Assembly: GCF_014203155.1 (NCBI RefSeq)
Contig: NZ_JACHIK010000003.1
Location: 372,001 to 436,000 of the forward strand
DNA length: 64,000 nucleotides
Direction of reading: 5' to 3'
Source of the DNA: Shinella fusca
GTDB lineage: Bacteria; Pseudomonadota; Alphaproteobacteria; Rhizobiales; Rhizobiaceae
This document shows positions 1,043 through 49,158 of this stretch, in pieces. The position numbers and the translations under genes were made by a program. The notes beneath the pieces are model-generated. The model searched no databases. It saw nothing but the letters and a program-made list of their open reading frames with translations, and was not told where the DNA came from. Each line of letters begins with the position of its first letter. Position 1 is the first letter of the stretch.

Positions 1043-2710
1043 ATGGGTACGGCGATAGATGAACTGTATGCGGTGCTCGGCTGGAAGCTGGAGGGCGAGC
1101 AGAACCTGACGCGGTTCCAGAAGGGGCTTGATAACGCTACGAAAAGCATTTCAGTCCTTGGGGTCGCAGCCGGCACTTTCATCGGCAACCTAGCGACCCA
1201 GGCATTCTCAAAGCTCGGCAGCGCCATCGGATCTCTACCGGGTGATGTCATTGGCATCTCCGCGAAGTTCGAGACGTTCCAGGCCACTCTTGAAACGGTG
1301 GAGGGCAGTTCCGACAAGGCCCGGGCCGCTCTCGACTGGATCAGCGACTTCGCCAAGCGGACACCCTACGAGGTCGAAGAACTGACTGCAGCGTTCGTGA
1401 AGCTCCGGGCCTACGGCCTCGATCCGACGAACGGTCTCATGGAAGACCTTGGCAATGCATCATCGGCTATGGGGAAGACGCTCAATGAGGCTGTGGAGAT
1501 GATCGCTGATGCTGGCACCAACTCGTTCGAGCGCATGAAGGAGTTCGGCATCACGGCGAGCCAGGCCGGGGACAAAGTCACCTTCTCTTGGGATGAAAAC
1601 GGCAAGACCGTGACGAAGACTGTCAAGAAAACGAGCGAAGAAATCCGAAAATTCGTACAGGAAACTTTGGGGAAACGCTTCTCCGGCGCGATGCTCAGGC
1701 AGTCGAAAACATGGGAAGGCATGATGAGCAATCTCGCCGACACATGGACGGATTTTCAAAGGAGGATTGGCGACGGCGGTTTCTTCGAGACGGTTAAAAA
1801 CAAGCTGGCCGGCGTGCTCGACTACCTCGGAAGACTCGACGCGGACGGGACGCTTGACCGTTGGTCGAAAAGCCTTTCCTCGGCCTTCACCTGGGCCGCT
1901 GACACCATAGGCCGGCTCGCCGTCACGTTGGGCCGCGACCTCGGCTCCATCGGCGAACTGCTCAACAAGTACAAGGGCGCATGGGAGTGGTTGAAATGGG
2001 TTGTCGGTGCGATAGCCGTCCGGCTCTTCCCGATGACGACGCTGCTTGTCGGGGCATATTTGGCGCTCAATGAGCTGCTGACCTACATGCGCGGCGGCAA
2101 GTCCGTCATCGGTGACTTCCTGGAATCGCTGGAGGGGCTGACCGGCATAGACGCGGACAAGATCAGCGAGATTGTTGGCACCCTCGGCGGCATGGCTGGA
2201 CTGGCGCTGGCGGCCGGCGGCGTGGCGTTGTTTGCCATGTCGCTGAGTCCGCTGACGAAAGCTCTGTTGCTCTTTGCTGGGGCCTACACCGCTGCGAAGG
2301 CAGGCCTGGAGTTTCTGTCCAGCCAAGACATCATGGGCGACAACAAGAAGGCGACCGACAATCCGCGCACCAAGCCCGGCTATATCGAGCAGACGGGCGA
2401 AGTCCTCTATATGGACGGGAACCGTATCGTTGACCGGCCAGCCGAAAATCCCACGGCCGGCTTCACCAAGGATGCGCTAGACTGGAAGTTCAAGATGCAA
2501 AACCTGGAGGGGAATCTGGCGAAGATGAACGGAGCGGCACAGACCGTCATCAACGACAACGCCGATAGGTCCATCAATGTGAAGGCCACAGCGTCGGTCT
2601 CCGTCACAGAAGTGAACCAGGCCGCATCTGCCGCCGGCCGCGAGACTGAAAACGCAGTTCGCAACGCTCTCACCAGCAAGCCTCGCCTTCTCAACAAGGG
2701 GATGTATTGA
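1043..2710 (+). CDS. Phage tail tape measure protein
   Basis: 555 aa from ATG 1043, preceded by the strong ribosome binding site AAGGAGGAGG. An alternative upstream start at 842 would overlap the preceding gene in another frame and is rejected. The N-terminal half carries the tape-measure domain seen in many myophages: ISAKFETFQATLETVEG, DFAKRTPYEVEELTAAF and SAMGKTLNEAVEMIADA. Central hydrophobic segments (about residues 310-345 and 385-430) fit membrane-active tape-measure regions. The protein sets tail length and helps DNA entry. Its stop overlaps the spike gene start (TGATG). Confidence 0.8.
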   Translation: MGTAIDELYAVLGWKLEGEQNLTRFQKGLDNATKSISVLGVAAGTFIGNLATQAFSKLGSAIGSLPGDVIGISAKFETFQATLETVEGSSDKARAALDWISDFAKRTPYEVEELTAAFVKLRAYGLDPTNGLMEDLGNASSAMGKTLNEAVEMIADAGTNSFERMKEFGITASQAGDKVTFSWDENGKTVTKTVKKTSEEIRKFVQETLGKRFSGAMLRQSKTWEGMMSNLADTWTDFQRRIGDGGFFETVKNKLAGVLDYLGRLDADGTLDRWSKSLSSAFTWAADTIGRLAVTLGRDLGSIGELLNKYKGAWEWLKWVVGAIAVRLFPMTTLLVGAYLALNELLTYMRGGKSVIGDFLESLEGLTGIDADKISEIVGTLGGMAGLALAAGGVALFAMSLSPLTKALLLFAGAYTAAKAGLEFLSSQDIMGDNKKATDNPRTKPGYIEQTGEVLYMDGNRIVDRPAENPTAGFTKDALDWKFKMQNLEGNLAKMNGAAQTVINDNADRSINVKATASVSVTEVNQAASAAGRETENAVRNALTSKPRLLNKGMY

Positions 2711-3366
2711 TGACCGGCTATCTGGGTAAAGTCGCGTACACGGAAGCCGATGTGATCGGCACAAGCTCCCTGAACGAGGTTGGGAGCATCTGGGGGGAGA
2801 TGCCCGGCCGTATCGTGTCATTCGACCCGGTTACTCAAACGGCGACGGTAAAAGCTCTCTACAGGCCGAACGTGAATGGCGTGGCCGTGGACATTCCCGA
2901 GTTGTTGGAGGTGCCGGTGCGCTTCCCGCGCGTTGGCGGGTTCGTCATGACCTATCCAGTGAAGCCGGGCGATAAGGTGAACCTCCGCCCCCAGATGCGA
3001 AGCACCGAGTCCTACGAAGGCGATGATGGGTTTGAAAGCAGCGATGCCAGAATGTTCCACATCTCGGACATGCAAGCCTTTCTCGACGGCGGCGAGCCAG
3101 TCGGGAACCCCATCCAGAATTTCAATTCCTCGAACATGGAAATACGGTCGGCGGACGGGCAATTCGCTATCGAGATGAGCGAGGACGGGAAGTTCAAGAT
3201 CCGGGGCAGCGAGGGCAACGTTTACGACCTCCTCGCGCAACTCGCGGAATTGCTCGGGGCTGAGACAACGACGGTCTCAGGCGGTTCGTCATCCGGTATT
3301 TGGCCGCTCACTCATCAGGCACAGTTTGCCGAAATCGCCGGCAAGCTGCGGGCAATGGCACTTTAG
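2710..3366 (+). CDS. Gp138-type baseplate spike protein
   Basis: 218 aa from ATG 2710, overlapping the tape-measure stop as TGATG. The N-terminal half reads as a gp138/gp5-like OB-fold: PGRIVSFDPVTQTATVKA, then LEVPVRFPRVGGFVMTYPV and KPGDKVNLRP. These are the hallmarks of the central membrane-piercing spike of contractile tails. The C-terminal part (NMEIRSADGQFAIEMSEDGKF) is a short beta-repeat region like a spike tip stem. Its presence indicates a contractile-tail (myovirus) origin for the left prophage. Confidence 0.75.
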   Translation: MTGYLGKVAYTEADVIGTSSLNEVGSIWGEMPGRIVSFDPVTQTATVKALYRPNVNGVAVDIPELLEVPVRFPRVGGFVMTYPVKPGDKVNLRPQMRSTESYEGDDGFESSDARMFHISDMQAFLDGGEPVGNPIQNFNSSNMEIRSADGQFAIEMSEDGKFKIRGSEGNVYDLLAQLAELLGAETTTVSGGSSSGIWPLTHQAQFAEIAGKLRAMAL

Positions 3367-3377
3367 GGGAGGCGAGA

Positions 3378-3872
3378 TTGCTTACTGTCCGGGCGATCCG
3401 CAAGAAGCGCGGGAAGGGCGTTAAGGGTATATCCTCACTGCTTCCCGGCCCCAATTCGGTGAGAGTGGGTTTCTGGAAAGGCGAGACAAATCCCATCGAT
3501 ATCGAAAAAGCGATCTACCAAGAATTCGGAACGAGGGGCGGTGCTTCCGGCGGAGGTTGGGGCGGTCCTATCCCCGAGCGTCCCTTTATGCGGGATGCGT
3601 TGCGCGACGGGCGAGAGGCGAACCGTGCGCTGCTCAAGAGCGAAGCGCGGCGTATCGTTCTAGCTGCCGTTCGGGGGGCGAGCGCCGCCGACGCGAAGCG
3701 CATGGCCCTTCGAAGGCTCGGCATCAAGATTCAGGGTGATATACAGGCGAGTATCGCATCGCTGACCACACCACCGAATAGCCCTGTTACGATTGCGCTC
3801 AAGGGATCGAGCAATCCCCTAATCGACTCAGGCGAACTACTTCAATCAGTCTCATGGATTGTCGAGACGTAG
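3378..3872 (+). CDS. Phage neck or tail-completion protein (gpG/gp10-like)
   Basis: 164 aa from TTG 3378, chosen because AGGGGAGG lies just upstream and the longer frame would read back into the spike gene. It contains AIYQEFGTRGG, IPERPFMRDAL, a basic helical middle, and a C-terminal NSPVTIALKGSSNPLIDSG followed by ELLQSVSWIV. This layout is typical of small virion-morphogenesis or tail-terminator proteins (HK97 gp10 / Mu gpG-like). The exact role is inferred. It is the last structural gene before the accessory genes. Confidence 0.6.
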   Translation: MLTVRAIRKKRGKGVKGISSLLPGPNSVRVGFWKGETNPIDIEKAIYQEFGTRGGASGGGWGGPIPERPFMRDALRDGREANRALLKSEARRIVLAAVRGASAADAKRMALRRLGIKIQGDIQASIASLTTPPNSPVTIALKGSSNPLIDSGELLQSVSWIVET

Positions 3873-3897
3873 ATAACACTTTTTCGCTTAACTCGAA

Positions 3898-3924
3898 TTG
3901 TGGGTATTCGTCACGCAGTATAAT
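3898..3924 (+). promoter_or_regulatory. Sigma70-type promoter for the HEPN-like cargo gene
   Basis: A perfect TATAAT (3919-3924) lies 35 bp upstream of the ATG at 3960, with TTGTGG (3898-3903) 15 bp upstream of it. The stretch is AT-rich compared with its surroundings. It would let the downstream gene be expressed independently of phage late transcription, as is usual for lysogen-expressed cargo genes. Confidence 0.5.
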
Positions 3925-3959
3925 TAAAAGAGTGTCTTTTCGCGCTAGAGGAAGCGACG

Positions 3960-4547
3960 ATGGTAACTAAGGCAACACTTCTGAAGATGGACCCTGACAT
4001 TCGCGCCTTTACGCTTGTGGGCGCGTTCATGGGATACTTTGCGGTTCTTGAGCTTGGTGTTAACGAAGCACTTTCAAAGGTGCTTGGTCTTGAAGTTGCA
4101 GCTTCAGTGGTAGTCTCCAGGAATATGTCATTCGATGACAAACTAAAAACGCTGCGCGCTTTGGTTTCACGCTTCACCATTAGCGAGTCCAAAGCCAAGG
4201 AGTTTGACGAATTAGTCAAGAGAGCGCGAAAGTGCGGAGAAATTCGAAATACTATTGCCCACAGCCCATTTCGTCGCAGTGAAAAAACTGATGGCGTTGA
4301 AGTTTTTGTCGTATCTGCCAATTCATCCCTGAAGTTTATCGAAATGGATTGGTCTGTCGACCGTTTCCTGGGGCAGATTGATGAGATAAACACGATAGAT
4401 AACGAGCTTCGTGCGATAGAGAAGACAGTGGCTATGCACCGAATTGGGGAGGCTCTTCTGAATCTCGGAGAAAGGGAGAGTGCAGACGGCGAGCAAGTCG
4501 GCGGGCTTCTGACGCTTGGGAAGCTCATCATGGAAGGTGAAATTTAG
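3960..4547 (+). CDS. HEPN-like cargo protein with Rx4H motif
   Basis: 195 aa, predicted almost all helical. Residues 96-101 are RNTIAH, the R-x4-6-H signature of HEPN RNases, placed after a long helix (FDELVKRARKCGEI) as expected for the fold. The N-terminal helices (about 15-45) resemble the first HEPN helices. HEPN proteins cut RNA in toxin-antitoxin, abortive infection and CRISPR-linked systems, so a defence or toxin role is plausible but inferred. Codon use is AT-richer than neighbouring phage genes and it has its own promoter, both signs of horizontally acquired cargo. No small antitoxin-like ORF is adjacent. Confidence 0.6.
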   Translation: MVTKATLLKMDPDIRAFTLVGAFMGYFAVLELGVNEALSKVLGLEVAASVVVSRNMSFDDKLKTLRALVSRFTISESKAKEFDELVKRARKCGEIRNTIAHSPFRRSEKTDGVEVFVVSANSSLKFIEMDWSVDRFLGQIDEINTIDNELRAIEKTVAMHRIGEALLNLGERESADGEQVGGLLTLGKLIMEGEI

Positions 4548-5051: not shown

Positions 5052-6110
5052 TTAAGAGGGGGCGGCGTATCGCTTTGCTGTTTCCCTTAGACGCTCTGCA
5101 TGATCGTAGATGTGATCGAGCGAGTCGATAATGACGCGATCCTCGTTATCACCGTCGAAGAGACCAATGTATTTGACGGCCCTGTTGAACCACAAGCGCG
5201 CCAACGGACGACGGTTATTGTTGTCGATCAATACGGCGCAGTAAGATTTCGCGTCTCTCATTGCCACTCGCTTGGGGCTGATCGTATCGCGGACGATAGC
5301 CTTAACAATCATGTAGCCTTCACGCTCTTCATCGGTGGTAACCACATCCGGTTCGTCGTCGGCAGGATCATCGATTTTTTCAATGACCTCCTGCGTATCA
5401 GCAAGTGCGCTTGAAAGGCGGCTTTTCACGGAATCCATAATTACTTCTCGAAACGCGGCTCTGACGATGCCCGTGAACATCTCTTTCACCTGGGCTCGCA
5501 TCTGCCCCTCATAGACATTGCGAGATACGATCCGCACGAACTCCTCGGTCGGTTCTTCGATTAGCTTGGCGATTTCCTGCTTTACGCCTGAGGTATATTT
5601 CAGCCGTTCCGCCGTGGCCAAAATCGCAGAAACGTCGAACGAACCCTTCTCGAACTTCCGAAGTTCTGCGAGAATTCCTGCATTGAAGTCTGTCACATCG
5701 AAGACGAAGAAGGGCCTGGTATCGAGCTTATTGGCTGCTTCCAAGTCAGTGTAGAAATTGAAGGTCCGACCGTTTGTCAGAATCGCAAACTTCGCGTTCG
5801 TGACGGTAAAGTACCGGAAAAGCTGATCCAAATGCTTCTTTTCAAGTTGCACGGAAATCGGCTTGCACTCGATTAGTATGCGAATATCGCCGTCGATCTT
5901 GATGGCGTAATCAACCTTCTCGCCCTTCTTGCCTACCGCATCAGCGGTGAATTCCGGCACTACTTCAGTCGGATCGAAGACGTCATAGCCGAGGGATCGT
6001 AGAAATGGCAGGACAACTGCGGTCTTGACGGCTTCTTCGGTTGCCATGGTGCTTGAATGCGATTTGACGCGTTCGGCAATCGCGCGAAGGCTCTCTTCGA
6101 TGGTGCTCAT
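5052..6110 (-). CDS. Lone HSDR_N-type restriction nuclease
   Basis: 352 aa. The N-terminal domain (about residues 1-130) matches the type I restriction HsdR N-terminal nuclease family (COG4748-like): TEEAVKTAVVLPFLRSLGYD, then VDYAI and ILIECKPISVQL, giving a PD-(D/E)xK core with D67, E81 and K83, followed by QLFRYF and FAILTNGRTFNFY. No HsdR motor, HsdM or HsdS gene is nearby, so it is a solitary nuclease rather than a complete type I system. The C-terminal half is helical then beta-rich and unassigned. A GGAGGGGAT ribosome site precedes ATG 6110. Prophage location suggests defence or superinfection exclusion (inference). Confidence 0.75.
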   Translation of the reverse strand: MSTIEESLRAIAERVKSHSSTMATEEAVKTAVVLPFLRSLGYDVFDPTEVVPEFTADAVGKKGEKVDYAIKIDGDIRILIECKPISVQLEKKHLDQLFRYFTVTNAKFAILTNGRTFNFYTDLEAANKLDTRPFFVFDVTDFNAGILAELRKFEKGSFDVSAILATAERLKYTSGVKQEIAKLIEEPTEEFVRIVSRNVYEGQMRAQVKEMFTGIVRAAFREVIMDSVKSRLSSALADTQEVIEKIDDPADDEPDVVTTDEEREGYMIVKAIVRDTISPKRVAMRDAKSYCAVLIDNNNRRPLARLWFNRAVKYIGLFDGDNEDRVIIDSLDHIYDHAERLRETAKRYAAPS

Positions 6111-8415: not shown

Positions 8416-8490
8416 TCCCTGGTAGCTCAGCGGTAGAGCATTCGACTGTTAATCGACAGGTCGCCGGTTCGAATCCGGCCCGGGGAGCCA
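8416..8490 (+). tRNA. tRNA-Asn (GUU), prophage integration target
   Basis: 75 nt including encoded CCA. The acceptor stem TCCCTGG pairs with CCGGGGA, the D-stem is GCTC/GAGC, the anticodon loop CTGTTAA carries GTT, and the T-arm is GCCGGTTCGAATCCGGC. Its last 17 bases are repeated at 49134, showing that the 40.7-kb element is integrated in its 3' end. The gene remains intact at the left junction. Confidence 0.95.
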
Positions 8491-8498
8491 GTTTAAAA
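8474..8498. repeat. attL core, 25 bp
   Basis: The 25 bases from the T-stem of tRNA-Asn through its CCA and the following GTTTAAAA are identical to 49134-49158. Together with a tyrosine integrase beside the right copy, this defines the attachment core of the prophage. Confidence 0.9.
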
Positions 8499-34636: not shown

Positions 34637-35904
34637 GCGGCTTCAGCCTCACCCTCGTTGCCGTCTTGCGGCTGGTTGTCATTCGCCGGAGCCGGCTGCT
34701 TGCCCGCCTTATCGAGCGGGATCGTGGCCCCCTGAATCAGGAGCCGGTCGCCACCGTTCAAAGGCTCTCTGTTGTCGAGAGCGCGCGCTTCATTCGGCGT
34801 CAGTTGCCCCGTCTGGATAGCGCGGGCATTGCCTTCCATGCGGGTCTTGTAGTCGCCGCGCAGCAGTCCATCGAGATTGTGCTCAAGATACCGCCCGCGC
34901 GACGTTCGTCCGAACACCTTGAGGTTCAACTCACCCTCAAACGCCTTGGCCCACTGCCCGACGAGGTGCTTTACGAGGTGCAAGTCCTGCTGCTCTGCGT
35001 TGCTGAACGTCGCCCGCGTCAGATCCTGCAGGAATGCCGGCGGCATCTGGTAGGCCCGCGCGATTTCTTCGACCTGGAAACGCCGCGCCTCGATCATCTG
35101 ACCCTTTGCAGGGTCCAGGCCGACCGGGTTCAACTTGTATCCAGGCGGAATCGGGAAGACCGATTCCCCAGCGCCCTTCGCGCCGTCGATCGCCCGCTTG
35201 ATGTCGGCCTTGGCGCGGTTCATCGCGTCATTGTTGGCCGGCAACGGCCCCTCAAGCACCAGCGGCGGCACCCCGCCACCGGCAAAGAAGTTGCTGCCGT
35301 AGTCGTTCATCGCCAGGGCAAGCTGGATAGCCTTCGATGCCTGAACGATCGGGCCGTAGTGCTTAAGGCCATCAGCCTTAAGCATGAACGGCACGTCGAT
35401 CACGTCTTCGGCGGGATACTCGACGCCATCGTGGGTATAGAATACCTTGCCGCCACGGCGTGAAATCGTCGTCTTGCCGGGGTCAAGAGGCCAAATCGCC
35501 TCTACCCCCTGTGGGGTGCGCTCGATCCACGCCAGGCCCCGTCCGCCGGTAAACACCTGCGCCCAAAACCACTGCCGGAACTTGAAGCTGTCCTGCGACG
35601 GGTTCGGAGCGTCGTGCACCACCGTCGCCAGCATTCCAGTTATGCGCTCCGACCCCGTTTTTGTCTTCCGGTACGGGTGCAGTGGCAACGCCGCGAGCGT
35701 GCGGGACAGAAAGTTCACCGCCGCCCACACCGCAGGCACGGTAAGCGCGGTGTCGATCGTAACCGCTGGTAGGTTCGCCGACTGCACCCCAAAGAACGCC
35801 AGGAAATTCTCTGCGCTCACGGGGACAGTCGGATTTTCTATGCTGGCCCGCGTTTCCGCAGGCTTTCCCGCGTTTCGGCGGCTAAACCAGTCTTTCACAG
35901 CCAT
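34633..35904 (-). CDS. Phage portal protein (HK97 type)
   Basis: 423 aa. ALTVPAVWAAVNFLSRTLAA, LPLHPYRKTKTGSERI, VEEIARAYQMPPAFLQDLT and NAEQQDLHLVKHLVGQWAKA are diagnostic for the portal ring protein. The C-terminus is a disordered PAPANDNQPQDG tail. Overlaps the protease by 4 bases and follows the large terminase. Confidence 0.93.
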   Translation of the reverse strand: MAVKDWFSRRNAGKPAETRASIENPTVPVSAENFLAFFGVQSANLPAVTIDTALTVPAVWAAVNFLSRTLAALPLHPYRKTKTGSERITGMLATVVHDAPNPSQDSFKFRQWFWAQVFTGGRGLAWIERTPQGVEAIWPLDPGKTTISRRGGKVFYTHDGVEYPAEDVIDVPFMLKADGLKHYGPIVQASKAIQLALAMNDYGSNFFAGGGVPPLVLEGPLPANNDAMNRAKADIKRAIDGAKGAGESVFPIPPGYKLNPVGLDPAKGQMIEARRFQVEEIARAYQMPPAFLQDLTRATFSNAEQQDLHLVKHLVGQWAKAFEGELNLKVFGRTSRGRYLEHNLDGLLRGDYKTRMEGNARAIQTGQLTPNEARALDNREPLNGGDRLLIQGATIPLDKAGKQPAPANDNQPQDGNEGEAEAA

Positions 35905-37571
35905 TATGCCGCCTTTGCGATACTGAATTCAGGATTGTCCCACGGCGACGAAGCCTCGGAGGCTCCCTCGTACGTCCCAGCCATTGCCGCCGCCTGCGCC
36001 AGAGCAACAGCGCCGTCGATACGACCGCGTGACTTTTTCTTTTCGAGCTTCCTGTTGCCGCTCGGATCCTGCTTCACGGTGGCATTCATCATGCACATCG
36101 TCAGGACCGGGTGACCGCCATGGGCTATCCGCCTGTTCAGGATCAGGCTCTCCAGGTCCCTGAGGGCTGGAGACATGGACGCAAACCCCTGACCGAACGG
36201 CTCGAATACAGCGTTATCGCCGTCCAGCTGCTCGTCGGTGAAGCCGGCCGCCTGGAGCCACGGTTTCAAGTGCCGCCAGTTCCAGCGGTCAAATCCGATC
36301 TTCCGAATGTCCATTCGGTCAAACAGCCCGCGCAGGTGATGCGCCACGAATTCATATTCGACCGTCGGCCCCGGCGTCGTCTCAAGAAACCGCCTTCCGT
36401 CTTCATCCGGCGTGTTCCACACGTCATATGGCACGCGGTCTGCCTTGGCCTTCTCGCGCAATCCATCGCCGGGCAGCCAGAACGTCGGCTTCACGTGCCA
36501 GACAGTCTTGCCATCCACGTCCTTCGGCGCCATCAGCACCAAGGCCGTCAGGTCGCTCACCTCCGACAAATCGAGCCCGCCGAATACCGGCAGACCGTCA
36601 AAATCAGAAACCGGCCCATCACAAGCCCGCCATACTGCAGGAGACACGAACGGCGCCGATGCGTCGATGCGTTGGTTCAGGTGAAGCCAGCGAAAACTAG
36701 CCTCCTCGGTCGGCATGCGGGCAGCGCGTTCCGCATCGTCCCGAATGGACGACACGGACTTGAACACGCCCAACGCCGGGTTGGCGGCCTTCCACGCGTC
36801 CTCGTCGAGGACATCGCAATCTGCTGGAGCCGCATAGAGATGCGACACGGTGCGGGGTGCCTTGGACGTCTCAGCGTCATCCAGCCAGCGAGAAAACAGG
36901 TCGTTGTCCGTGGCCGCCTGCGTCGAGATGGCGAAGATCATCGCCTTGTCGCCGTAAGCTCCCTGAGACGTGACGATCGCCTCCACGAAATCGTCGTGCG
37001 GGCCCTTGATCTGGCCGACTTCATCGAGGATGGCGACAAGCGGCGAACCGCCGTGCGCGCTCTTTGCTTCAGCCGAACTGGCGCGATAGACGACGTTCTT
37101 TTTCAGTCCGACTATCATCTTGCCGGACGGCACGATGCGGTACTTGCCCTTCAGGCGCTCCGACATCATCAGCATCTTGCTGGCGTAATTGAACACCTCA
37201 GCGGCCTGGTCGCGAGACCGGGCGCCGGACATGATGCGGCTGTTCGGAAACGCCTCAGGACCGACAACATGCCCGAGAAGCAGGCAGGCAATCGTGGCCG
37301 TCTTGGAGTTCTTACGGGCAATCGAGAGATACGCTCGAGATGTACCCGCCGGATTGTCGTAAACCGCGAGGATAAACGCGACCTGGAAATCCAGCAACCG
37401 GATCGGCTGGCCGACAAGTTCGCCCTCAGGGACGACAAGGTAGGTCTCAATGAACCTGCACATCCGCTCGCCGCGGGTCAGCTTCTCGGTGGGAAGTTTG
37501 CGCCAGTCACGCAGGACTGGAGTCGGGCCGCACTTGATGGCGCCAACCACAGCCTCAGAGAGCATTTTCAA
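35904..37571 (-). CDS. terL: Terminase large subunit
   Basis: 555 aa. ATPase: Walker A variant IARKNSKT at residues 84-91, Walker B LVAILDEVG with D183-E184, and coupling motif FAISTQA. Nuclease: FGGLDLSEVSDLTALVLM carries the first acidic residue, with DRWNWRHLKPW and later acidic positions. It cuts and pumps phage DNA into the prohead together with the P27-like small subunit. Confidence 0.95.
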   Translation of the reverse strand: MKMLSEAVVGAIKCGPTPVLRDWRKLPTEKLTRGERMCRFIETYLVVPEGELVGQPIRLLDFQVAFILAVYDNPAGTSRAYLSIARKNSKTATIACLLLGHVVGPEAFPNSRIMSGARSRDQAAEVFNYASKMLMMSERLKGKYRIVPSGKMIVGLKKNVVYRASSAEAKSAHGGSPLVAILDEVGQIKGPHDDFVEAIVTSQGAYGDKAMIFAISTQAATDNDLFSRWLDDAETSKAPRTVSHLYAAPADCDVLDEDAWKAANPALGVFKSVSSIRDDAERAARMPTEEASFRWLHLNQRIDASAPFVSPAVWRACDGPVSDFDGLPVFGGLDLSEVSDLTALVLMAPKDVDGKTVWHVKPTFWLPGDGLREKAKADRVPYDVWNTPDEDGRRFLETTPGPTVEYEFVAHHLRGLFDRMDIRKIGFDRWNWRHLKPWLQAAGFTDEQLDGDNAVFEPFGQGFASMSPALRDLESLILNRRIAHGGHPVLTMCMMNATVKQDPSGNRKLEKKKSRGRIDGAVALAQAAAMAGTYEGASEASSPWDNPEFSIAKAA

Positions 37572-37577
37572 CCTCGA

Positions 37578-38030
37578 CTAGGCCAGAAGCAGATCGTCGT
37601 CGCTCGCCGCCGCCCCCTCGATTTCCTTCGCCGCCTCACGTCGTTTCGCGACGTCCCGCGCTTCGCCACCCTGCGCCCGCGCATGCAGGGACAACGACCG
37701 GCGGAATGACAGGATCGATGAGGCGTGCATCTGAACGACAGCCTTGCGCGGATTGGCGAGCGGAGAGCCTTTTTCGGAGTAGGCAACAGCACCTTCCGTG
37801 CGCAGCAAATCCTGCTCGCGCACTAGATCCGCCATGGTGCGAGCCAGCATCGCGGCAATCTCAAGCTGGTGTGCCGACCACTCGGCGCGGGCGTATTCGG
37901 CGATCACATTCCGGAAAAATGGAATGTCACCGTCGGACAACGGCACGTTTGCAGGCATTTGGATGTCGTCAGCGGAAGCGATCCGTACCGCTTCGGTGAC
38001 GCTGTCGACGCGACCGCGCTTGCGAGCCAT
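37578..38030 (-). CDS. terS: Terminase small subunit (P27-like)
   Basis: 150 aa from ATG 38030 with GAGGAGCG upstream; a longer frame to 38072 has no support. Helical: FFRNVIAEYARAEWSAHQLE, AAMLARTMADLVREQDLL and ANPRKAVVQMHASSILSFRR, the P27-family pattern. It recognises phage DNA and recruits the large subunit. Confidence 0.8.
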   Translation of the reverse strand: MARKRGRVDSVTEAVRIASADDIQMPANVPLSDGDIPFFRNVIAEYARAEWSAHQLEIAAMLARTMADLVREQDLLRTEGAVAYSEKGSPLANPRKAVVQMHASSILSFRRSLSLHARAQGGEARDVAKRREAAKEIEGAAASDDDLLLA

Positions 38031-38146
38031 GGCGCTCCTCCTCGCGCACGCGCGCTTGCGCACGCGAGGCAAAAATCTGTGTTTGCATTAACGTTCTTGG
38101 TCCGCGCCGCTCCTGCGGCCGACAGTCGGAAGGGCCGACCCTCCCC

Positions 38147-38458
38147 CTACCCAATCTCGATGGGATACCCATCCACGCCGTAGGTGACGACCTTCACGCC
38201 GCGCTCCATTGCCTGCTTTGCGCTGTCATGGTGATGCCGGCAAAGGGACTGAAGATTTTCAGGGTCGAAGAACAAGGCCTCATCGCCTTTGTGTTCCTTG
38301 ATGTGGTCGACCACCTCGGCAGCCGTCACGTCCTCGGTGATAAGGCAGAACCGGCACAGCGGCTCACGGGACAACTGCTGCTCACGCAGATTCAGCCAGC
38401 GCGATCGCTTATAAAGGTGCTGCCATGCAGCGCTTTCGCCGCGACGTTTGGTTGCCAT
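38147..38458 (-). CDS. HNH endonuclease
   Basis: 103 aa. C35-x2-C38 (PLCRFCLI), AAEVVDHIKEHKGDEALF with D51-H52, then PENLQSLCRHHHDSAK complete the beta-beta-alpha metal site. It sits just upstream of the small terminase, where HK97-like cos phages encode an HNH protein needed for terminase cutting. Confidence 0.9.
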   Translation of the reverse strand: MATKRRGESAAWQHLYKRSRWLNLREQQLSREPLCRFCLITEDVTAAEVVDHIKEHKGDEALFFDPENLQSLCRHHHDSAKQAMERGVKVVTYGVDGYPIEIG

Positions 38459-38549: not shown

Positions 38550-39041
38550 TTACCGAGTGAACTTTCCCCGCAAGAGGATGTGCATACGCTTCAACACCAT
38601 GAGCATCGTGAGAAGAAAGTTCAATCCAACAAAATAGATAACAGCCTCGATTATGATTTGCCCTATTCCACCCACAAAAAGAAGAACCACTAGAAGCATA
38701 ACGGCCAACAACGAGGACATGACCGCGAAAGAGATATTTGCAAACGACTGCTGTACGAGCTCTTCTCGCACCGGATCAGGCTCTTCTTCTCCCGAAGAGA
38801 AACTGTAGATCAGGACGAGCACGTTAAAGAGAAGCCCGCCAAAGATAGCGAAAGCCGAGATGAGAGTGCCTACGTGTCCATCCGGTATGTGGAATCCAGC
38901 GACGGCGGAGCCAACTGCCACCGCAATAGGGAATCCAACCATCACGGCAAAGTCGAGGGCACTAAACTTACCGGTTGCTTCGTCTTTGAACGTTGCAAAA
39001 TGATCTTGAACAATGGCACGGAGATCGATCTTCGACGTCAC
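38550..39041 (-). CDS. RexB-like four-TM membrane protein
   Basis: 163 aa with four membrane helices at about 30-50, 58-80, 103-124 and 129-150, a charged loop between helices 2 and 3 (SGEEEPDPVREELVQQ), and a basic C-terminus (KRMHILLRGKF). Its ATG overlaps the stop of the 306-aa gene (ATGA), so the two are co-translated. Size, topology and pairing match lambda RexB (144 aa, four TM), the ion-channel part of the RexAB exclusion system. Sequence similarity cannot be claimed by eye. Confidence 0.7.
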   Translation of the reverse strand: MTSKIDLRAIVQDHFATFKDEATGKFSALDFAVMVGFPIAVAVGSAVAGFHIPDGHVGTLISAFAIFGGLLFNVLVLIYSFSSGEEEPDPVREELVQQSFANISFAVMSSLLAVMLLVVLLFVGGIGQIIIEAVIYFVGLNFLLTMLMVLKRMHILLRGKFTR

Positions 39042-39958
39042 AACTTGATCCCTCCTCGTTTCGCCAAGTCGGCCGCAACTTTATCAAACTCGCTCTTAAG
39101 GCTTGCCCTTGTCGGGTGCCCATCGGCTCCGAACTTCACGTCATCAGTGATATCCACCGACATCGAGATCGAATCCGGCTTGGTCAAGTTTACGGACTTT
39201 AGCTCGTCGCCTATCCTAATCTTGGCCTTAACGACATCGAAGCCGTGATCGTCAAACTCAAACACATCCTCAAGCTTCTTCTGCCCCTTGGCGAAGGCGA
39301 TTAGACCGCTCTTTTTAAAGAGACCCGCGCTTGACTTAATGATCTGCGTAAAAGTTCCGGGGTAAACCTTCTTCTGGCCACCGTACAGATCCGCGATGTC
39401 GGCTGGAATCTCGTGTTTTTCAACTATAAGCTCCTCAACATTCCCGCCCTTAAGGTACTGCGCAAGAGTGTCTGCGATAGTCAATTGCCGAACGTGCAGG
39501 CGGTAATCCGGGTATTGAGATTCAAAAACGCCAACGACTGCTGTCTCAAACAACCCCTTTACACCCTGCAGACCAGTTTGCTGCAAGACTACAATCCCTC
39601 TAGTTTCGTTATCCGGGACCGCAATGTAGAAATAGAACGGCTCAGCCAGGGATTCCGTCTTCTTCTTTTTGTACGATACGTTGCCGCTCGCAGAATCGAT
39701 AATGTCTCCGGCCTGCCCATAATCCCCCGACATGATTAATCCAGTTAGAGGGCCGGCATTTGCCTTGTCTAAATCGACTTTGAATATCTTGTCGTGCAGC
39801 TTCAGAGCGACATATTTGGGGTACTTTTGCAGTATCTTTTGCAGCGCTATTCTCAGCGCCTGAGATCCGTCAAATTTCCCAAATTTCAGGTTGTCGCTCG
39901 ACCGTGCATTGAGCTTACGCACCTCAATTAGATACGCTACCGCCTTACATCGTCTCAT
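39038..39958 (-). CDS. RexA-like soluble partner
   Basis: 306 aa from ATG 39958 (GGGGGAT upstream; ATG 39970 is possible). No membrane segment. Alpha/beta pattern: LRIALQKILQKYPKYVALKL, IFKVDLDKANAGPLTGLIMS, PFYFYIAVPDNETRGIVVLQ and, at the C-terminus, KAKIRIGDELKSVNLTKP. The order (short KI/FKVD strand region, FYFYIAVPDNE strand, C-terminal beta-rich domain) parallels lambda RexA (279 aa). Paired with a four-TM protein it suggests an abortive-infection or exclusion system. Family not recognised with certainty. Confidence 0.6.
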   Translation of the reverse strand: MRRCKAVAYLIEVRKLNARSSDNLKFGKFDGSQALRIALQKILQKYPKYVALKLHDKIFKVDLDKANAGPLTGLIMSGDYGQAGDIIDSASGNVSYKKKKTESLAEPFYFYIAVPDNETRGIVVLQQTGLQGVKGLFETAVVGVFESQYPDYRLHVRQLTIADTLAQYLKGGNVEELIVEKHEIPADIADLYGGQKKVYPGTFTQIIKSSAGLFKKSGLIAFAKGQKKLEDVFEFDDHGFDVVKAKIRIGDELKSVNLTKPDSISMSVDITDDVKFGADGHPTRASLKSEFDKVAADLAKRGGIKL

Positions 39959-40677
39959 TCGATCCCCCATACTTAGACGTGTGGGGACGCTAGCAAAACA
40001 TCACAACCCAGTCTAAGGTTGCAACCGCTTTTAAACCGATTTCTTTCCTGTACCTAGCGCATGAAAACAAAAGCGGCCGCTCGACACCGCCAAGCAGTGG
40101 AGCAGCCGCACGATTGTCTGTCGCTAGAGGAGGAGCGCCAGACAATTGGAATTCGGCAAGCCAGCGCCTCCTCTCTGGGTTACGGCGCGCGAAGTGGCTG
40201 ACCTGCCGAATGGGGGTCGGGAAGGCGAAGGGACCGCAGCGCTTCGCTCTTATTCCAGCCTGGGCCTTTCAGCCGAGGACTTCCCGATAAAGAGCCCGCC
40301 AGGGTACGCCGAAGCGTGGCAGGCCTTGTCGACTAATTAGCAGGCGGCGCCCTCCTGTTGCTTCAGGACGTTGGGCATATGACCGACACCGCCACGGTGC
40401 GAACCCCGGTGCGAAGCCAGCCACAGAGGCTCAGGATGCTCATGAAGTCGGCAAGGAACGGCCATGAACGAACCACGACCTTCTCGGCTTGCGCCGCCTT
40501 GCCTGTTTGGTTGCGCCCGGCTCGCACGCGGCCGAGCGTCCGTCGCAAACATAGGTGCGCCCGGAAAGGTGTGGGGCGCGCAACGTAGTTGCAGTTCACT
40601 CTCACCGATCGGGCCAATGTAAACCTAGACAACTCGCGACCGACGTGCAGGAATGCGATCACCGTTCGGAGTTACCC
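39959..40677. other. 720-bp stretch without a convincing gene
   Basis: The part next to 39958 must hold the promoter of the RexAB-like pair and contains the palindrome GGTTGCAACC near 40020. Several overlapping frames exist on both strands (for example 40146-40340 plus, 40363-40662 minus), but none has a good start and they conflict. Small regulatory RNAs or peptides cannot be excluded. Confidence 0.4.
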
Positions 40678-42821: not shown

Positions 42822-45326
42822 TCACGGCAACGCAACCAGTTCGCGAACTCGCTCGCGCCGCGCTTTTTCCTTCTCCGCTCGGTGCGCAAAATCATCGAAG
42901 ACCGCCGGATTGACGATGTAAGTCGTGGAATCTTTTCGCGCCGTCGGGACTGGCTCCACCCATGAGAGCGCATCGAGCTTTCGAAGCACCTCCTCGGCCT
43001 GGTCAACATCCATCTCCCGCATGGTCCGGTCGCCTCGGCGCACGTCTCGCACTGTGATCTTCTCCGGTCGGTGAGACAGTATCCATCCGGCAGTCGCTAG
43101 AACCGCGTCGTGCCGATCTGAAAGCCCCAAGACGTTCTGGTAAAACGCCAAAGCATGGGGGAACAAAAACTCGTGCAGGAACTCCGCGACCCGCTGTGCC
43201 ACATCAATCGAAACCGTGGTGGATGGCCTCGTGCTCTCGGCTTCAATGCAGTGAAAGAGCACGCAAAGCCTGGCGTATAGGCCGTCATACTTCCCGATGT
43301 GCGCGGCAAGCTTCTTGTTGAGTATCTCCCAACTCGTCTGCATTTCGTGATGCTTTTCAGATAGTTCATGCCGCAAGTCCTGAGCCGCCGCGTCAAACTT
43401 CAGCGACACCTCAAGCATTTTGCCCTGTAGGGGGCGCTGCATCTGATGGAGGCGATGCACCAGCCCCGCGTACTGACCGACGGCGGCGGAGGGCGGCACA
43501 TCAAGGCCTACCGACGACGGCCCCAAGCAGATTGGGAAAAGACGTTGGAGCAAGCCGTCATCCGCAGTATCGGCAGCAATCCTCCGGATTGGTTCCGGCT
43601 GGATGCCACCGAGCATGGACACAGACAGATTATCTATCGCGACGACGCCACGCCCCACGCGGTTGACGCTATAGCTCCCCCCGTTGAACGCCTGAAGCCA
43701 AAAACTGCGGTCGGCAGCCGCTCCCTTCCCTGTCCCATATTTCTCCATCGAGCCGAACCAGCCAGAGAGTTCGTCGCGGATGAGCAGGACGCCCTCTGTT
43801 GTATCGCGCAGGATTTCCTGCGCAGCCTCAACCGTCACATCCTCCATACGGGCACGGATCTGCTTCGGCGCCGGCTTGTCGCTTTTCCCGGCTTTGTCGA
43901 GCCCGTCGTATAAGCGCTTCTCATTGAGGTAGGCTCGCACCAATTCGTCATCGATCGACCGCAACGGCCGGGTCGCGGCGCTGATGATAGGAGATTTCTT
44001 GGCGCTCGGATTGCCAATGAGCGCCACCCATATACGCGCGGACTCCTCCCATTCGTCGTGCCGCTTTACCCTCAACGTGATCCTGTCTGGAAGCGCCGCG
44101 GCACAGACCGCGAGTGCCGCGGCCGCTAACCCTCCGGCGTCGACGCCCATAATCTCCGCCTGCGAGCGCGCGAAGTCCTCAATCCCGGCCGGGAGCAGTC
44201 CGAACGGCAAGGTCGGATGAGACCGCTGTGCCCAAGGGTCTACCGGCCGAGGGATTTCCTTCTCGGGAGCGGCCGGCATTTTGTTGTTGTCGTTGGCGGG
44301 GACTGGCGTGGTTTTCATACGGTTGCCCGAGAAAATCTCCGCCACGCTGGCTGCATGCGCCCGCTCCTCGGCATGGTGTACCGCGTATTTTCCCCAAAGC
44401 CGTTTGAAATCAGCAACGGGGTCCTTTCCTTCGTATCGCGCAAACCAGTTGCCAGTCGCCGAAAGAAATGCCGCACAAGCCTGCTCCGCTGTAAGCCCAT
44501 CGAAACCCAACTGCTCGACCACCCGCGCCGCGTGTTCGGAGCGCTTTTCAACATCATCCGCCGCCAGCATTTCCGCAGCAACGGGGCTGATCTCGATGCC
44601 ATCGACCATAGGAAGCTCGCCCAGTGCCACTGGCCCCGTGGGTACCGCGGCAGACGACCAAGGCTCGAGCTCGTTTCGAAGATTCTCAATGCTAGTCAGC
44701 GACCCGTCCCATGCTTCGGCAACCGTTACCGGGACGGGCTCTGGATCTCGACCGCGGGCAAGCTTAGTGGCGCCAGGCCAGTTTAGAGTGCCACTGACGC
44801 GCCAGACGTGACAAATATCAGCGGTTCCCGCATCGCTACCTGTAGCGCGACGGAGAGCTGCTGCAAGCGGCCTCGCTTCTGCCGGCGGCAAGGCGCGATC
44901 AAACAGCCAAAACGGCTGTCCATTCCCGGGACTGGTCTCGATGGTGTAGTTGGGCTCGACTGGCAGTTCGCCGGCCGCCTTACCCGTGTCCCCGTCCATG
45001 TCGGCGACGAGGCCAAGAACCGCGACGATATCGGCCTCGGTCCCGCGCTTGCCGCGGGCAAGTCCAGGACGCATAACCTGAAGGCCCGCGTAGACGTTGG
45101 CGCCCCGTGTGACGCCGTGAGCCATGATCGATTCCACCATACCGTCGACGTCGCCGACGCGGTGGTGTGTGATGATACCCTTGTCTGTCGGCAGGGCGGC
45201 GTTGAAAACCGAGACGACGAGAACGCCATCAATTCCATTAGCAAGCTCGTGCAACATTTGCACGTGCTCTCGGATCGCTGGCTCATCGAAGAGGATCGAG
45301 GGGCTAAGCTGCGTGGCTGCGGTCAT
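42822..45326 (-). CDS. Primase/helicase-like replication protein (RepB-primase + DUF3987)
   Basis: 834 aa from ATG 45326 (overlap with the upstream gene). Residues 1-190 form an archaeo-eukaryotic-type primase: ADIVAVLGLVADMDGDTG with D109-x-D111, YTIETSPGNGQPFWLF, and CHVWRVSGTLNWPGA. A VPANDNNKMP linker follows near 380. The C-terminal part (from about 410) matches DUF3987, a RecA-like ATPase: WVALIGNPSAKKSPIISAAT (Walker A region), GVLLIRDELSGWFGSMEKYG (Walker B). It should initiate phage DNA replication. Confidence 0.85.
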   Translation of the reverse strand: MTAATQLSPSILFDEPAIREHVQMLHELANGIDGVLVVSVFNAALPTDKGIITHHRVGDVDGMVESIMAHGVTRGANVYAGLQVMRPGLARGKRGTEADIVAVLGLVADMDGDTGKAAGELPVEPNYTIETSPGNGQPFWLFDRALPPAEARPLAAALRRATGSDAGTADICHVWRVSGTLNWPGATKLARGRDPEPVPVTVAEAWDGSLTSIENLRNELEPWSSAAVPTGPVALGELPMVDGIEISPVAAEMLAADDVEKRSEHAARVVEQLGFDGLTAEQACAAFLSATGNWFARYEGKDPVADFKRLWGKYAVHHAEERAHAASVAEIFSGNRMKTTPVPANDNNKMPAAPEKEIPRPVDPWAQRSHPTLPFGLLPAGIEDFARSQAEIMGVDAGGLAAAALAVCAAALPDRITLRVKRHDEWEESARIWVALIGNPSAKKSPIISAATRPLRSIDDELVRAYLNEKRLYDGLDKAGKSDKPAPKQIRARMEDVTVEAAQEILRDTTEGVLLIRDELSGWFGSMEKYGTGKGAAADRSFWLQAFNGGSYSVNRVGRGVVAIDNLSVSMLGGIQPEPIRRIAADTADDGLLQRLFPICLGPSSVGLDVPPSAAVGQYAGLVHRLHQMQRPLQGKMLEVSLKFDAAAQDLRHELSEKHHEMQTSWEILNKKLAAHIGKYDGLYARLCVLFHCIEAESTRPSTTVSIDVAQRVAEFLHEFLFPHALAFYQNVLGLSDRHDAVLATAGWILSHRPEKITVRDVRRGDRTMREMDVDQAEEVLRKLDALSWVEPVPTARKDSTTYIVNPAVFDDFAHRAEKEKARRERVRELVALP

Positions 45327-45567
45327 GGCGGGCGATATCTCCGATGGATTGGTTGGCGAGGCGGACCAGTGTAGCCGCGAGGTCAGGCGTGAGGGTCGCA
45401 ACAGACGAGCCGTACGCGGAGGGCGCATGAATCCGCCGCCCGGAGGGGCCATCGACCAGCTTCAAATTGAACAGCCGCAGTCCATTGAGTTGGACATCGA
45501 CGAACGCGATGGCCCGACCAGCGCCAGGAGGCGCCGGTCTGACTGCAATGATTGAAGGGTGAACCAT
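45304..45567 (-). CDS. SpoVG-like small protein
   Basis: 87 aa. AIAFVDVQLNGLRLFNLKLV, GPSGRRIHAPSAYGSSVATL resembles the short SpoVG-like fold (beta-strand, then KLV..G...APS). SpoVG proteins bind nucleic acid; phage versions are early genes. It overlaps the primase gene by 23 bases. Confidence 0.6.
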   Translation of the reverse strand: MVHPSIIAVRPAPPGAGRAIAFVDVQLNGLRLFNLKLVDGPSGRRIHAPSAYGSSVATLTPDLAATLVRLANQSIGDIARHDRSHAA

Positions 45568-47270: not shown

Positions 47271-47837
47271 TTGGCAACGCAGAAAGAATTGATCGCGGTG
47301 GTCGCCGAAAATATGGGTGTGCCTATAGAGACAGTGACGGTGATTGATCGTTATCTGGCAGAAGCTGGGCTCCGCACCAGGGCCTTACGGGGGCGAGGAA
47401 CCACGCCCATGACATATGCTGATGCCGCGAACATGATCATCGCGACGGCCTGGGACGCAAACCCGAAGGACGCGGTTAATCTGGTAAAGGCCTTTCGTGA
47501 CCTGCTGGCGAACCGAGTAAGAGAGACGGTTTATGTGGCTAAAGATGCGCTAGGCTCGACGTTCGGCGAAGCCCTATCGAACATGATCGAATCAATTCCA
47601 GAGGAGCGTGCGGCCTTCAGCGCGCCTGATGACGCACCGGGGCATATGTCCGTAAGGGTAATTATGTATGGGCCGGAGCCAAGGGCAGATGTTATCTTAG
47701 TAAAAGACGGCGAGCCGAACACGTTTGAATTCGGCCCGATGTTCAGCCGCTCCATTGATCTCCGTAGGACTGTAGAGTTTTCTCAGATCACGCTCGGATT
47801 CGTCGGCGAAGCCATTGCAGACGGATTCTCCAAATAA
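47271..47837 (+). CDS. Candidate non-canonical prophage repressor
   Basis: 188 aa from TTG 47271 (TGGAGG 9 bp upstream; an in-frame ATG at 47235 lacks a ribosome site). Residues 2-75: ATQKELIAVVAENMGVPIET, VTVIDRYLAEAGLRTRALRG and TYADAANMIIATAWDANPKD give an HTH-like helical domain. The C-terminal half is beta-rich (MSVRVIMYGPEPRADVILVK) and could dimerise. It is divergent from the early operon and its 3' end overlaps the integrase end by 55 bp. The family is common in Rhizobiales islands but not characterised as far as I know. Confidence 0.7.
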   Translation: MATQKELIAVVAENMGVPIETVTVIDRYLAEAGLRTRALRGRGTTPMTYADAANMIIATAWDANPKDAVNLVKAFRDLLANRVRETVYVAKDALGSTFGEALSNMIESIPEERAAFSAPDDAPGHMSVRVIMYGPEPRADVILVKDGEPNTFEFGPMFSRSIDLRRTVEFSQITLGFVGEAIADGFSK

Positions 47838-48991
47838 TCAGCCCAGGTCTGCATCAGCTCCCTCCTCCGCTCCAAAGCATCAGAGCGGGCGTACGAACGC
47901 TCGACGGCGTCGCCGACCGCGTGCGCGAGTGCGGCCTCGGCAATCTCACGAGGTGCATGGGCGACCTCTGTTGACCAGTCCCTGAATGTGCTTCGAAAGC
48001 CGTGCACAGTATGGGCGCCATTATCCACGGCCTTGAGCACTGCCCCAAGCGTCGCGTCGGCAAGCATCTTCCCATCTCGGACACTAGGGAAAACAAAGTC
48101 ATTGACCGACTTCTTCACCATCTGCTTAAGCAGAGTAATAGCTTGGCTAGAGAGTGGCACGCGATGAATTTTCCCGGGCTTCGTCCGGATGGCCGGGATG
48201 GTCCATACCTTTTTCTGGAGATCAATTTCGGACCATACGGCGCCGCGTGCTTCTCCGCTCCGCACCACGGTCAAAACTGTAAATTCGAGCGCACGCGCCT
48301 CGACGGTTTTGATCTGGCGCAGCTTCTTCATGAAATCTGCAGCGGCCGCGTGAGGCATTGCTGAGTGGTGCTTTTTGCTCGTTAGTGCGTTCGGCTTGTG
48401 AAGGGCGAATTCCAGGACGCCTCTCCACCGAGCTGGGTTGTCGCCCGTCCTGTGCCCCTCCACCTTCGCAGCATCAAGCACTCGCTCGATTGCCTCCCTC
48501 AATTTTTCCGCGGTTTCCTGACGGACGCCCCAAATCGGGCGTAGCACATCCAGAACGTCGGGCACGCCAATGGCGTTCAGAGCCTTCGGCCGTAGACCTG
48601 CAGCGTGGTTCTCCAAGAGGTTTCGCCACCGCGCCTCCGTCTTCGCACCGCGCCACCGACCAGCCTTCACCGCGTCGTCAATGAAGCCGTCGGCGTATTG
48701 CCCGAAGGTTGTCGACTTGACCTCAGAGACGTGGCGTCGCGCGATGGGATCGATACCGCTTCGAACAAGCTTGCGGGCCTCGTCGGCCTTCGCCCTGGCC
48801 TCCGCCAGACCCACACTCAGCAAAGGACCGAGGCCGAGTTGCCGGCGCTTTCCCCCGAGGGTAAAGTCGAACACCCAGTACCTGGCGTCACCTTTCGTCA
48901 CGAGCCAAAGGCCACCGCCGTCGCGCAGCTTCTTCGCGGAGCTGGCCGCAATTGCTTTGACGGTGAGCACATTTCGAGTATGGCTCCCCAT
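47783..48991 (-). CDS. int: Tyrosine integrase (P4 type)
   Basis: 402 aa from ATG 48991. N-terminal arm-binding domain (LRDGGGLWLVTKGDARYWVF, GPLLSVGLAEARAKADEARK), core-binding domain, and catalytic residues R244 (TVVRSGEARG), K271/H276 region (KPGKIHRVPLS), H330-x2-R333 (HGFRSTFRDWS), H357 and nucleophile Y367. It lies 143 bp from attR and drives integration at tRNA-Asn. Its 3' end overlaps the candidate repressor. Confidence 0.95.
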   Translation of the reverse strand: MGSHTRNVLTVKAIAASSAKKLRDGGGLWLVTKGDARYWVFDFTLGGKRRQLGLGPLLSVGLAEARAKADEARKLVRSGIDPIARRHVSEVKSTTFGQYADGFIDDAVKAGRWRGAKTEARWRNLLENHAAGLRPKALNAIGVPDVLDVLRPIWGVRQETAEKLREAIERVLDAAKVEGHRTGDNPARWRGVLEFALHKPNALTSKKHHSAMPHAAAADFMKKLRQIKTVEARALEFTVLTVVRSGEARGAVWSEIDLQKKVWTIPAIRTKPGKIHRVPLSSQAITLLKQMVKKSVNDFVFPSVRDGKMLADATLGAVLKAVDNGAHTVHGFRSTFRDWSTEVAHAPREIAEAALAHAVGDAVERSYARSDALERRRELMQTWADYLENPSAMASPTNPSVI

Positions 48992-49133
48992 TTTCCTTCC
49001 CCGCAATTTTCCCCACTTTTTGGGTCGTTGCTAGTATTAGGCACAATGGTCACAATGGGCAAGGAAATCCCGAAACCACAGCACATCAATGGCTTAGAAG
49101 GATCAGTATGGTCGCTATGGATGGCTCAGCTTT

Positions 49134-49158
49134 TCCGGCCCGGGGAGCCAGTTTAAAA
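49134..49158. repeat. attR core, 25 bp
   Basis: Identical to 8474-8498. Only the last 17 bases of the tRNA plus GTTTAAAA are present, so no functional tRNA is made here. Confidence 0.9.

Follow-up and report, generated by a model that had tools for sequence, protein, structure and literature searches.

We found that the two overlapping genes at positions 38550 to 39958 of the window, by which we mean the whole 64,000-nucleotide stretch of Shinella fusca DNA analysed here, probably encode a prophage-borne, Rex-like abortive-infection (superinfection exclusion) system, in which the product of the first gene, A, would sense infection and activate the product of the second, B, so that growth is arrested. 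Membership in the Rex-like kind follows from the actinophage homologues of A and from the conserved membrane partner, not from lambda. The two genes are:

39038..39958, minus strand: gene A, a soluble, basic (pI 9.1), Rex-like protein of 306 aa, proposed to be a DNA-binding infection sensor
38550..39041, minus strand: gene B, a 163-aa product whose four hydrophobic segments are predicted to lie in the membrane, proposed to be the membrane effector

The original prediction, a 306-aa soluble protein and a 163-aa protein with four membrane helices, was confirmed at the level of the ORFs, both on the minus strand. Gene A has two possible starts, ATG 39958 (306 aa) and ATG 39970 (310 aa); the former has GGGGGA just 5′ and coincides with the start of the relatives L003 and L005. 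A simple hydropathy scan placed four hydrophobic segments in window B (residues 31-49, 60-78, 105-123 and 129-147) and none in the 32 A proteins examined, window A among them. Four segments were also counted in 29 of the 32 family B proteins and three in the other three; the same scan applied to known proteins gave four in three of five RexB-type proteins and in only one of three actinophage proteins. Residues M148, R152, P38 and K4 of window B were identical in all 32 aligned members. The predicted translational coupling is borne out by a 4-nt overlap of the A stop with the B start, although the junction reads GTGA and not the predicted ATGA because B starts with GTG. Among 33 family pairs, B starts with ATG in 29, the two genes overlap in 28 (21 of them sharing 4 nt), and no gap exceeds 18 nt.

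The pair lies as a unit within a prophage, as had been proposed, with an HNH gene and the terminases on one side and a helicase-like gene and the integrase on the other. The surrounding features are:

8474..8498: 25-bp repeat, left copy, located where tRNA-Asn (8416-8490) has its 3′ end and probably an att site
35904-37571, minus strand: large terminase, downstream of the pair on the same strand
37578-38072, minus strand: small terminase, downstream of the pair on the same strand
38147-38458, minus strand: HNH gene, downstream of the pair on the same strand
40000..40025, minus strand: terminator-like hairpin just upstream of A
42822-45452, minus strand: DUF3987/helicase-like gene, upstream of the pair
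47783-49006, minus strand: prophage integrase, on the upstream side of the pair
49134..49158: 25-bp repeat, right copy, next to the integrase and probably an att site

The prophage spans approximately 40.7 kb between the 25-bp direct repeats, and its carriage of the pair is established by the integrase, the terminases and the repeat at tRNA-Asn. The GC content of the A-B cassette is 49%, lower than the 61% of the window and the roughly 62% of the adjoining phage genes. The hairpin before A is weak evidence of an insulated cassette; five terminator-like sites were found in 2.5 kb, compared with 2.5 expected in shuffles. No repressor gene stands next to the pair, and the upstream ORFs had no repressor matches. 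Outside the prophage, a 352-aa ORF at window positions 5052-6110 (minus strand) has a start that by eye resembles restriction-enzyme-type proteins.

The protein family databases had little to say about either product. No Pfam or PADLOC family matched window A or window B at E<=1, and NCBIfam gave one match per protein, each below its cut-off (17.6 bits against 140 and 9.6 bits against 285). In PHROG, window A matched phrog_15676 (1.8e-6, partial, residues 74-264) and phrog_36224 (1.2e-4), and window B did not reach E<=0.001 with phrog_15250; all three are labelled function unassigned. The statement that no recognised family is evident was thus nearly right, holding for Pfam and PADLOC but not for PHROG, and no unrelated characterised family claims A. 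At E<=0.001, phrog_15676 was matched by 11 of 17 A proteins and phrog_15250 by 8 of 17 B proteins, both sets including the window. Lambda RexA and RexB fall in other PHROGs (12654 and 14878).

The family of A was placed by comparison with the actinophages. CarolAnn gp44 and Sbash gp30 are recognised as homologues of RexA and are described as forming dimers and binding DNA non-specifically (PMC11077077), and exclusion is reported to be conferred by the CarolAnn gp44/gp43 pair of a Gordonia phage and by the Sbash gp30/gp31 pair of a Mycobacterium phage (PMC6426606, PMC6426596). When a 32-sequence A profile was compared with CarolAnn gp44, Sbash gp30 and Sejanus 46, hhalign gave 98% with P=2.3e-13 over 299 columns, and the score of 97.2 was reached by none of 100 column shuffles (maximum 21.8). 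Each half of the A family gave the match as well (Pseudomonas-like 94.8%, window-like 97.6%), as did a 12-sequence alignment (97.4%, P=1.1e-11). Taken singly, the actinophage proteins scored 69.3, 74.8 and 77.3 against the A profile, with 122 unrelated proteins at or below 23.0. In the reverse direction, the three-sequence actinophage profile scored 12.0-55.6 (mean 29.5) against 32 single A proteins, with unrelated proteins up to 25.9; some A members lie inside the control range here because that profile is thin. By sequence comparison, the homology of A with CarolAnn gp44 and Sbash gp30 extends over nearly its full length, and the original RexAB-like reading gains support from this match to studied proteins.

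The arrangement is also shared, in that the CarolAnn and Sbash pairs have the same gene order, overlapping genes, a small membrane protein downstream and carriage by a phage. A is about 65 aa shorter than its counterparts (370-372 aa). No repressor gene adjoins the window pair, and Sbash is described likewise, whereas the CarolAnn order is 45 (immunity repressor)-44-43. For B, the comparison with CarolAnn gp43, Sbash gp31 and Sejanus 45 gave a score of 26.4 (P=1.8e-3, probability 15%) against a shuffle maximum of 18.6 (0 of 100 reaching the score), but shuffling destroys membrane segments; singly, the actinophage partners scored 11.0, 23.3 and 23.6 against B, and one of 15 unrelated membrane-type ORFs reached 25.4.

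The predicted match to lambda RexA/RexB stood in gene order and topology (a soluble protein followed by a membrane protein with four hydrophobic segments) and, marginally, in the sequence of A. It failed for the Pfam models and for similarity between B and RexB. Lambda's own proteins match PF15969 (RexA) and PF15968 (RexB) at 1e-97 and 8.5e-92; neither model matched window A or B at E<=1. The A profile scored 31.0 against RexA, with shuffle maxima of 22.4 (200 shuffles) and 26.2 (100 shuffles) and 106 unrelated single proteins at or below 23.0, and the alignment, made in global mode, was collinear over nearly the full length. Of five RexA sequences taken singly, one (27.7) exceeded the unrelated maximum. 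Given these unrelated-protein controls the signal is not decisive alone, and we regard the sequence similarity of A to lambda RexA as marginal. B gave no signal against RexB, as 49 of 200 shuffles reached its score, and no similarity emerged when profiles of A and B from smaller alignments were compared directly with RexA and RexB. In the same test, the Rex proteins of the actinophages showed no signal against lambda RexA either (46 of 100 shuffles reached the score) and were also negative against RexB, indicating that a test against lambda RexA lacks power. The lambda order, cI-rexA-rexB, differs in that the genes follow cI and that 15 nt separate rexA and rexB, with no overlap.

The AlphaFold2 model of A built on the 12-sequence alignment had pLDDT 81 and pTM 0.68 (the single-sequence model, pLDDT 35). 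Inspected by eye, it has an N-terminal sheet, alternating strands and helices and a long C-terminal helix, an order of strands and helices resembling the RexA layout as published in PMC11077077. Foldseek against PDB returned nothing at E<=0.001, and RexA was absent among the 50 of 1038 matches listed, so that the likeness of A to RexA suggested in advance stood in the strand-helix order by eye but not among the matches listed. Against the viral library (BFVD), five matches at E<=0.001 with probability 1.0 were obtained, all uncharacterised phage proteins (A0A6J5Q1Z2, A0A8S5S8L2, A0A8S5MSR5, A0A8S5PCY0 and A0A8S5QGP5), which may be further Rex-like proteins.

A sceptical reader may take from these comparisons that the pair belongs to another kind of two-gene system, a membrane defence (Kiwa-like, for instance) or toxin-antitoxin one, and is Rex-like only in size and topology. 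The direct sequence link to lambda is marginal for A and RexA and absent for B and RexB, RexA is not among the 50 Foldseek matches listed for the A model, and the scores of B against the single actinophage membrane proteins fall within the range of the unrelated membrane-type controls, leaving its homology to any Rex membrane protein unproven. We nevertheless consider this explanation extremely improbable, because A matches the CarolAnn and Sbash proteins strongly, and because PADLOC, empty for window A and B, gave only two single weak matches among 17 A proteins (PDC-S15 0.007, PglX 0.031). We dropped Kiwa, judged by the PADLOC models, and the other PADLOC systems because none matched convincingly.

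Conserved pairing is the second ground for placing the window genes in the Rex-like kind. The search for A covered collections of viruses and genomes as well as phages, plasmids and whole genomes, and A and B occurred together in 33 of 34 opened loci, in agreement with the co-occurrence that the original prediction proposed to check. This count leaves out OR863247 and NZ_CP156782, two more records with an A match, and two other places on the plasmid of locus L064. Through A, 26 distinct loci were reached, including the window, and B lay directly downstream in 25; in 24 of these B was recognised by eye and then aligned, and in L063 it was recognised by profile. A search of IMG/VR with an eight-sequence B alignment returned ten viral contigs, all ten with A directly upstream; two were already known, and the A proteins of the eight new ones scored 158-253 bits to the A profile. 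Distances among A proteins and among their B partners were correlated over 32 pairs (r=0.88; maximum 0.19 in 1000 permutations), which is also expected from shared ancestry of the cassette and therefore shows only that partners are not reshuffled. The exception to the pairing is an N-truncated A remnant without B at L064:2974-3645 (NZ_CP134948, a Halobellus plasmid), near an IS1595-family transposase gene. In L005 an intact pair stands next to an IS1595-like transposase (by eye).

With a single-protein query, A was found in 5 of 297 genomes of the window's own family, and with a small alignment in 3 of 385 genomes of the class and 7 of 398 of the phylum, the window's genome being counted in each of these three samples. 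A larger alignment found A in 7 of 398 Pseudomonadaceae genomes. In two genera, picked because they already held a match, A was present in 1 of 25 genomes of one and 2 of 82 of the other. The pair is thus carried by roughly 0.5-2% of the sampled Pseudomonadota genomes. Window A and the A of L008 had no match in the phage collection and one weak match among plasmids, which proved to be the archaeal pair of L063. Scans of viral contigs with single A proteins (of L008, L007, L035 and L020) or with Salmonella phage RexA found no relative, and the same scan with lambda RexA found 11 loci, every one of at least 76% identity and so no distant bridge. The RexA Pfam model matched in 1 of 274 genomes of one class.

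The genomic settings of the relatives vary. Both L022 and L050 carry, immediately upstream of A-B and on the same strand, a repressor-like ORF (by eye of LexA/S24 type); this is the order of lambda cI-rexA-rexB and of CarolAnn 45-44-43. In L042, an HTH ORF and a fragment like a repressor end lie upstream of the pair, and in L054 and L057 repressor-like ORFs are separated from it by two ORFs and one ORF, respectively (all by eye). Lysis-type genes precede the pair in L003 and L043 and chromosomal-type genes adjoin it in L004, again by eye, and in L036 and L063 it is on plasmids. The varied positions and the low GC content fit a mobile moron. In L035:2524-3995 (OQ658363), the pair adjoins an integrase gene; this Pseudomonas aeruginosa phage record has coat genes of Pf1 type and is apparently a filamentous prophage. 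In L041:3044-6479, an ORF resembling an integrase flanks the pair on one side and a retron-like reverse transcriptase ORF on the other (by eye), which may represent a defence cluster.

The plasmid of L063 (NZ_CP084471) belongs to the haloarchaeon Natrinema salinisoli and carries the pair at 2507-4059, with a 4-nt overlap (GTGA). Its A protein (345 aa) scored 87.8 bits to the A profile (E 4e-28), and its B protein (172 aa, four hydrophobic segments) scored 38.3 bits to the B profile (E 6e-13), both searches covering the ORFs of that locus only. The B gene is missing from the distributed gene table. Among the papers listed in a literature search, none on archaeal Rex pairs was seen, which is not proof of absence.

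These settings bear on the idea that A mainly tunes the lysis-lysogeny switch through DNA binding, with defence a side effect or absent. The idea draws on the account that RexA is able, without RexB, to bias the bistable switch of lambda (PMC11077077). Pure regulation would not need B, yet B is retained with A in all but one of the opened loci, and the pair is also found beside chromosomal-type genes and on plasmids; in addition, the P. putida RexAB pair is described as having no effect on its own repressor promoter (PMC12894663). We therefore judge a mainly regulatory role to be very improbable.

The Rex-like abortive-infection reading can be compared with the RexAB of Pseudomonas putida prophage P1 (PP_5643/PP_5644), published in 2026, for which PMC12894663 describes a defence that needs both genes, non-specific DNA binding by RexA, and RexB as the effector, triggered by overexpression of RexA with inhibition of growth. 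By this account RexB damages the membrane in a subpopulation of cells with no measurable depolarisation, and for that reason an ion channel is an unsafe inference for B. Such systems outside lambdoid phages, called little described in the original prediction, are somewhat better described than that, P. putida RexAB included, and the same source (PMC12894663) counts only five RexAB-like systems. As described there, the P. putida proteins resemble the window pair in that a soluble A of similar size accompanies a four-helix B. Within the present family, the Pseudomonadaceae locus L054 comes close to the description: the two ORFs that separate A-B from the repressor-like ORF, here partial, are placed as in P1, and its A is 36.3 kDa, where 37.5 kDa is reported for His-tagged P. 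putida RexA (PMC12894663). Of the seven residues reported for RexB, its B (187 aa) shares W25 and S145 and differs at the other five, and the full set of reported residues was present in none of the seven A-matched loci from the 398 sampled Pseudomonadaceae genomes. The window pair and P. putida RexAB are probably one family, the case being circumstantial and made by description.

The division of labour between the two proteins might instead be reversed, an arrangement that PMC12894663 describes as reported for gp30/gp31 of mycobacteriophage Butters, to which we liken the pair by description. A would then be the toxic or antiviral effector, tethered and silenced at the membrane by B and released upon infection. 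The basic character of A (pI 9.1) is what a nucleic-acid-acting effector might show, but no catalytic motif was recognised in A by eye, and PMC12894663 assigns the effector role in CarolAnn, Sbash and P. putida to the membrane protein. For these reasons we hold the reversed arrangement to be unlikely.

Under the preferred reading, with A as sensor and B as effector, A would be a cytoplasmic, DNA-binding and probably dimeric protein, as its studied relatives suggest, and would be activated by a product of the infecting phage, for example DNA-protein intermediates of replication or recombination, or a phage protein. Activated A may then engage B on its cytoplasmic face. B, a small membrane protein with four predicted helices, is probably oligomeric and, by analogy with the relatives for which membrane damage or toxicity is described, would open or disrupt the inner membrane. 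Growth would stop before the invader finishes its cycle, through death of the cell or arrest only, giving the defence phenotype that the relatives lead us to expect. The overlap of the genes may hold the A:B ratio fixed and so keep B silent in the lysogen.

The pair belongs to a known kind, the Rex-like one, and the breadth of the family is the interesting part. Two PHROG families of unassigned function (15676 and 15250) are now tied to this kind, and annotation with PADLOC (2023) would miss the system since no convincing match exists there. The 33 natural pairs, one of them on a haloarchaeal plasmid, form a comparative set for the trigger of the sensor and for killing or arrest by the membrane partner. 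A wider reading, to which we give an even chance, is that Rex is a broad, still unannotated immune module, made of a DNA-binding sensor and a four-helix membrane effector, which moves across replicons (tailed prophages, Pf-type filamentous prophages, plasmids and chromosomes) in Pseudomonadota and reaches the haloarchaea, as in the Natrinema plasmid pair. If this is true, the pair works in archaeal as well as in bacterial membranes, and the 70-year-old question of the signal for RexA would be open to comparison of dozens of divergent natural systems.
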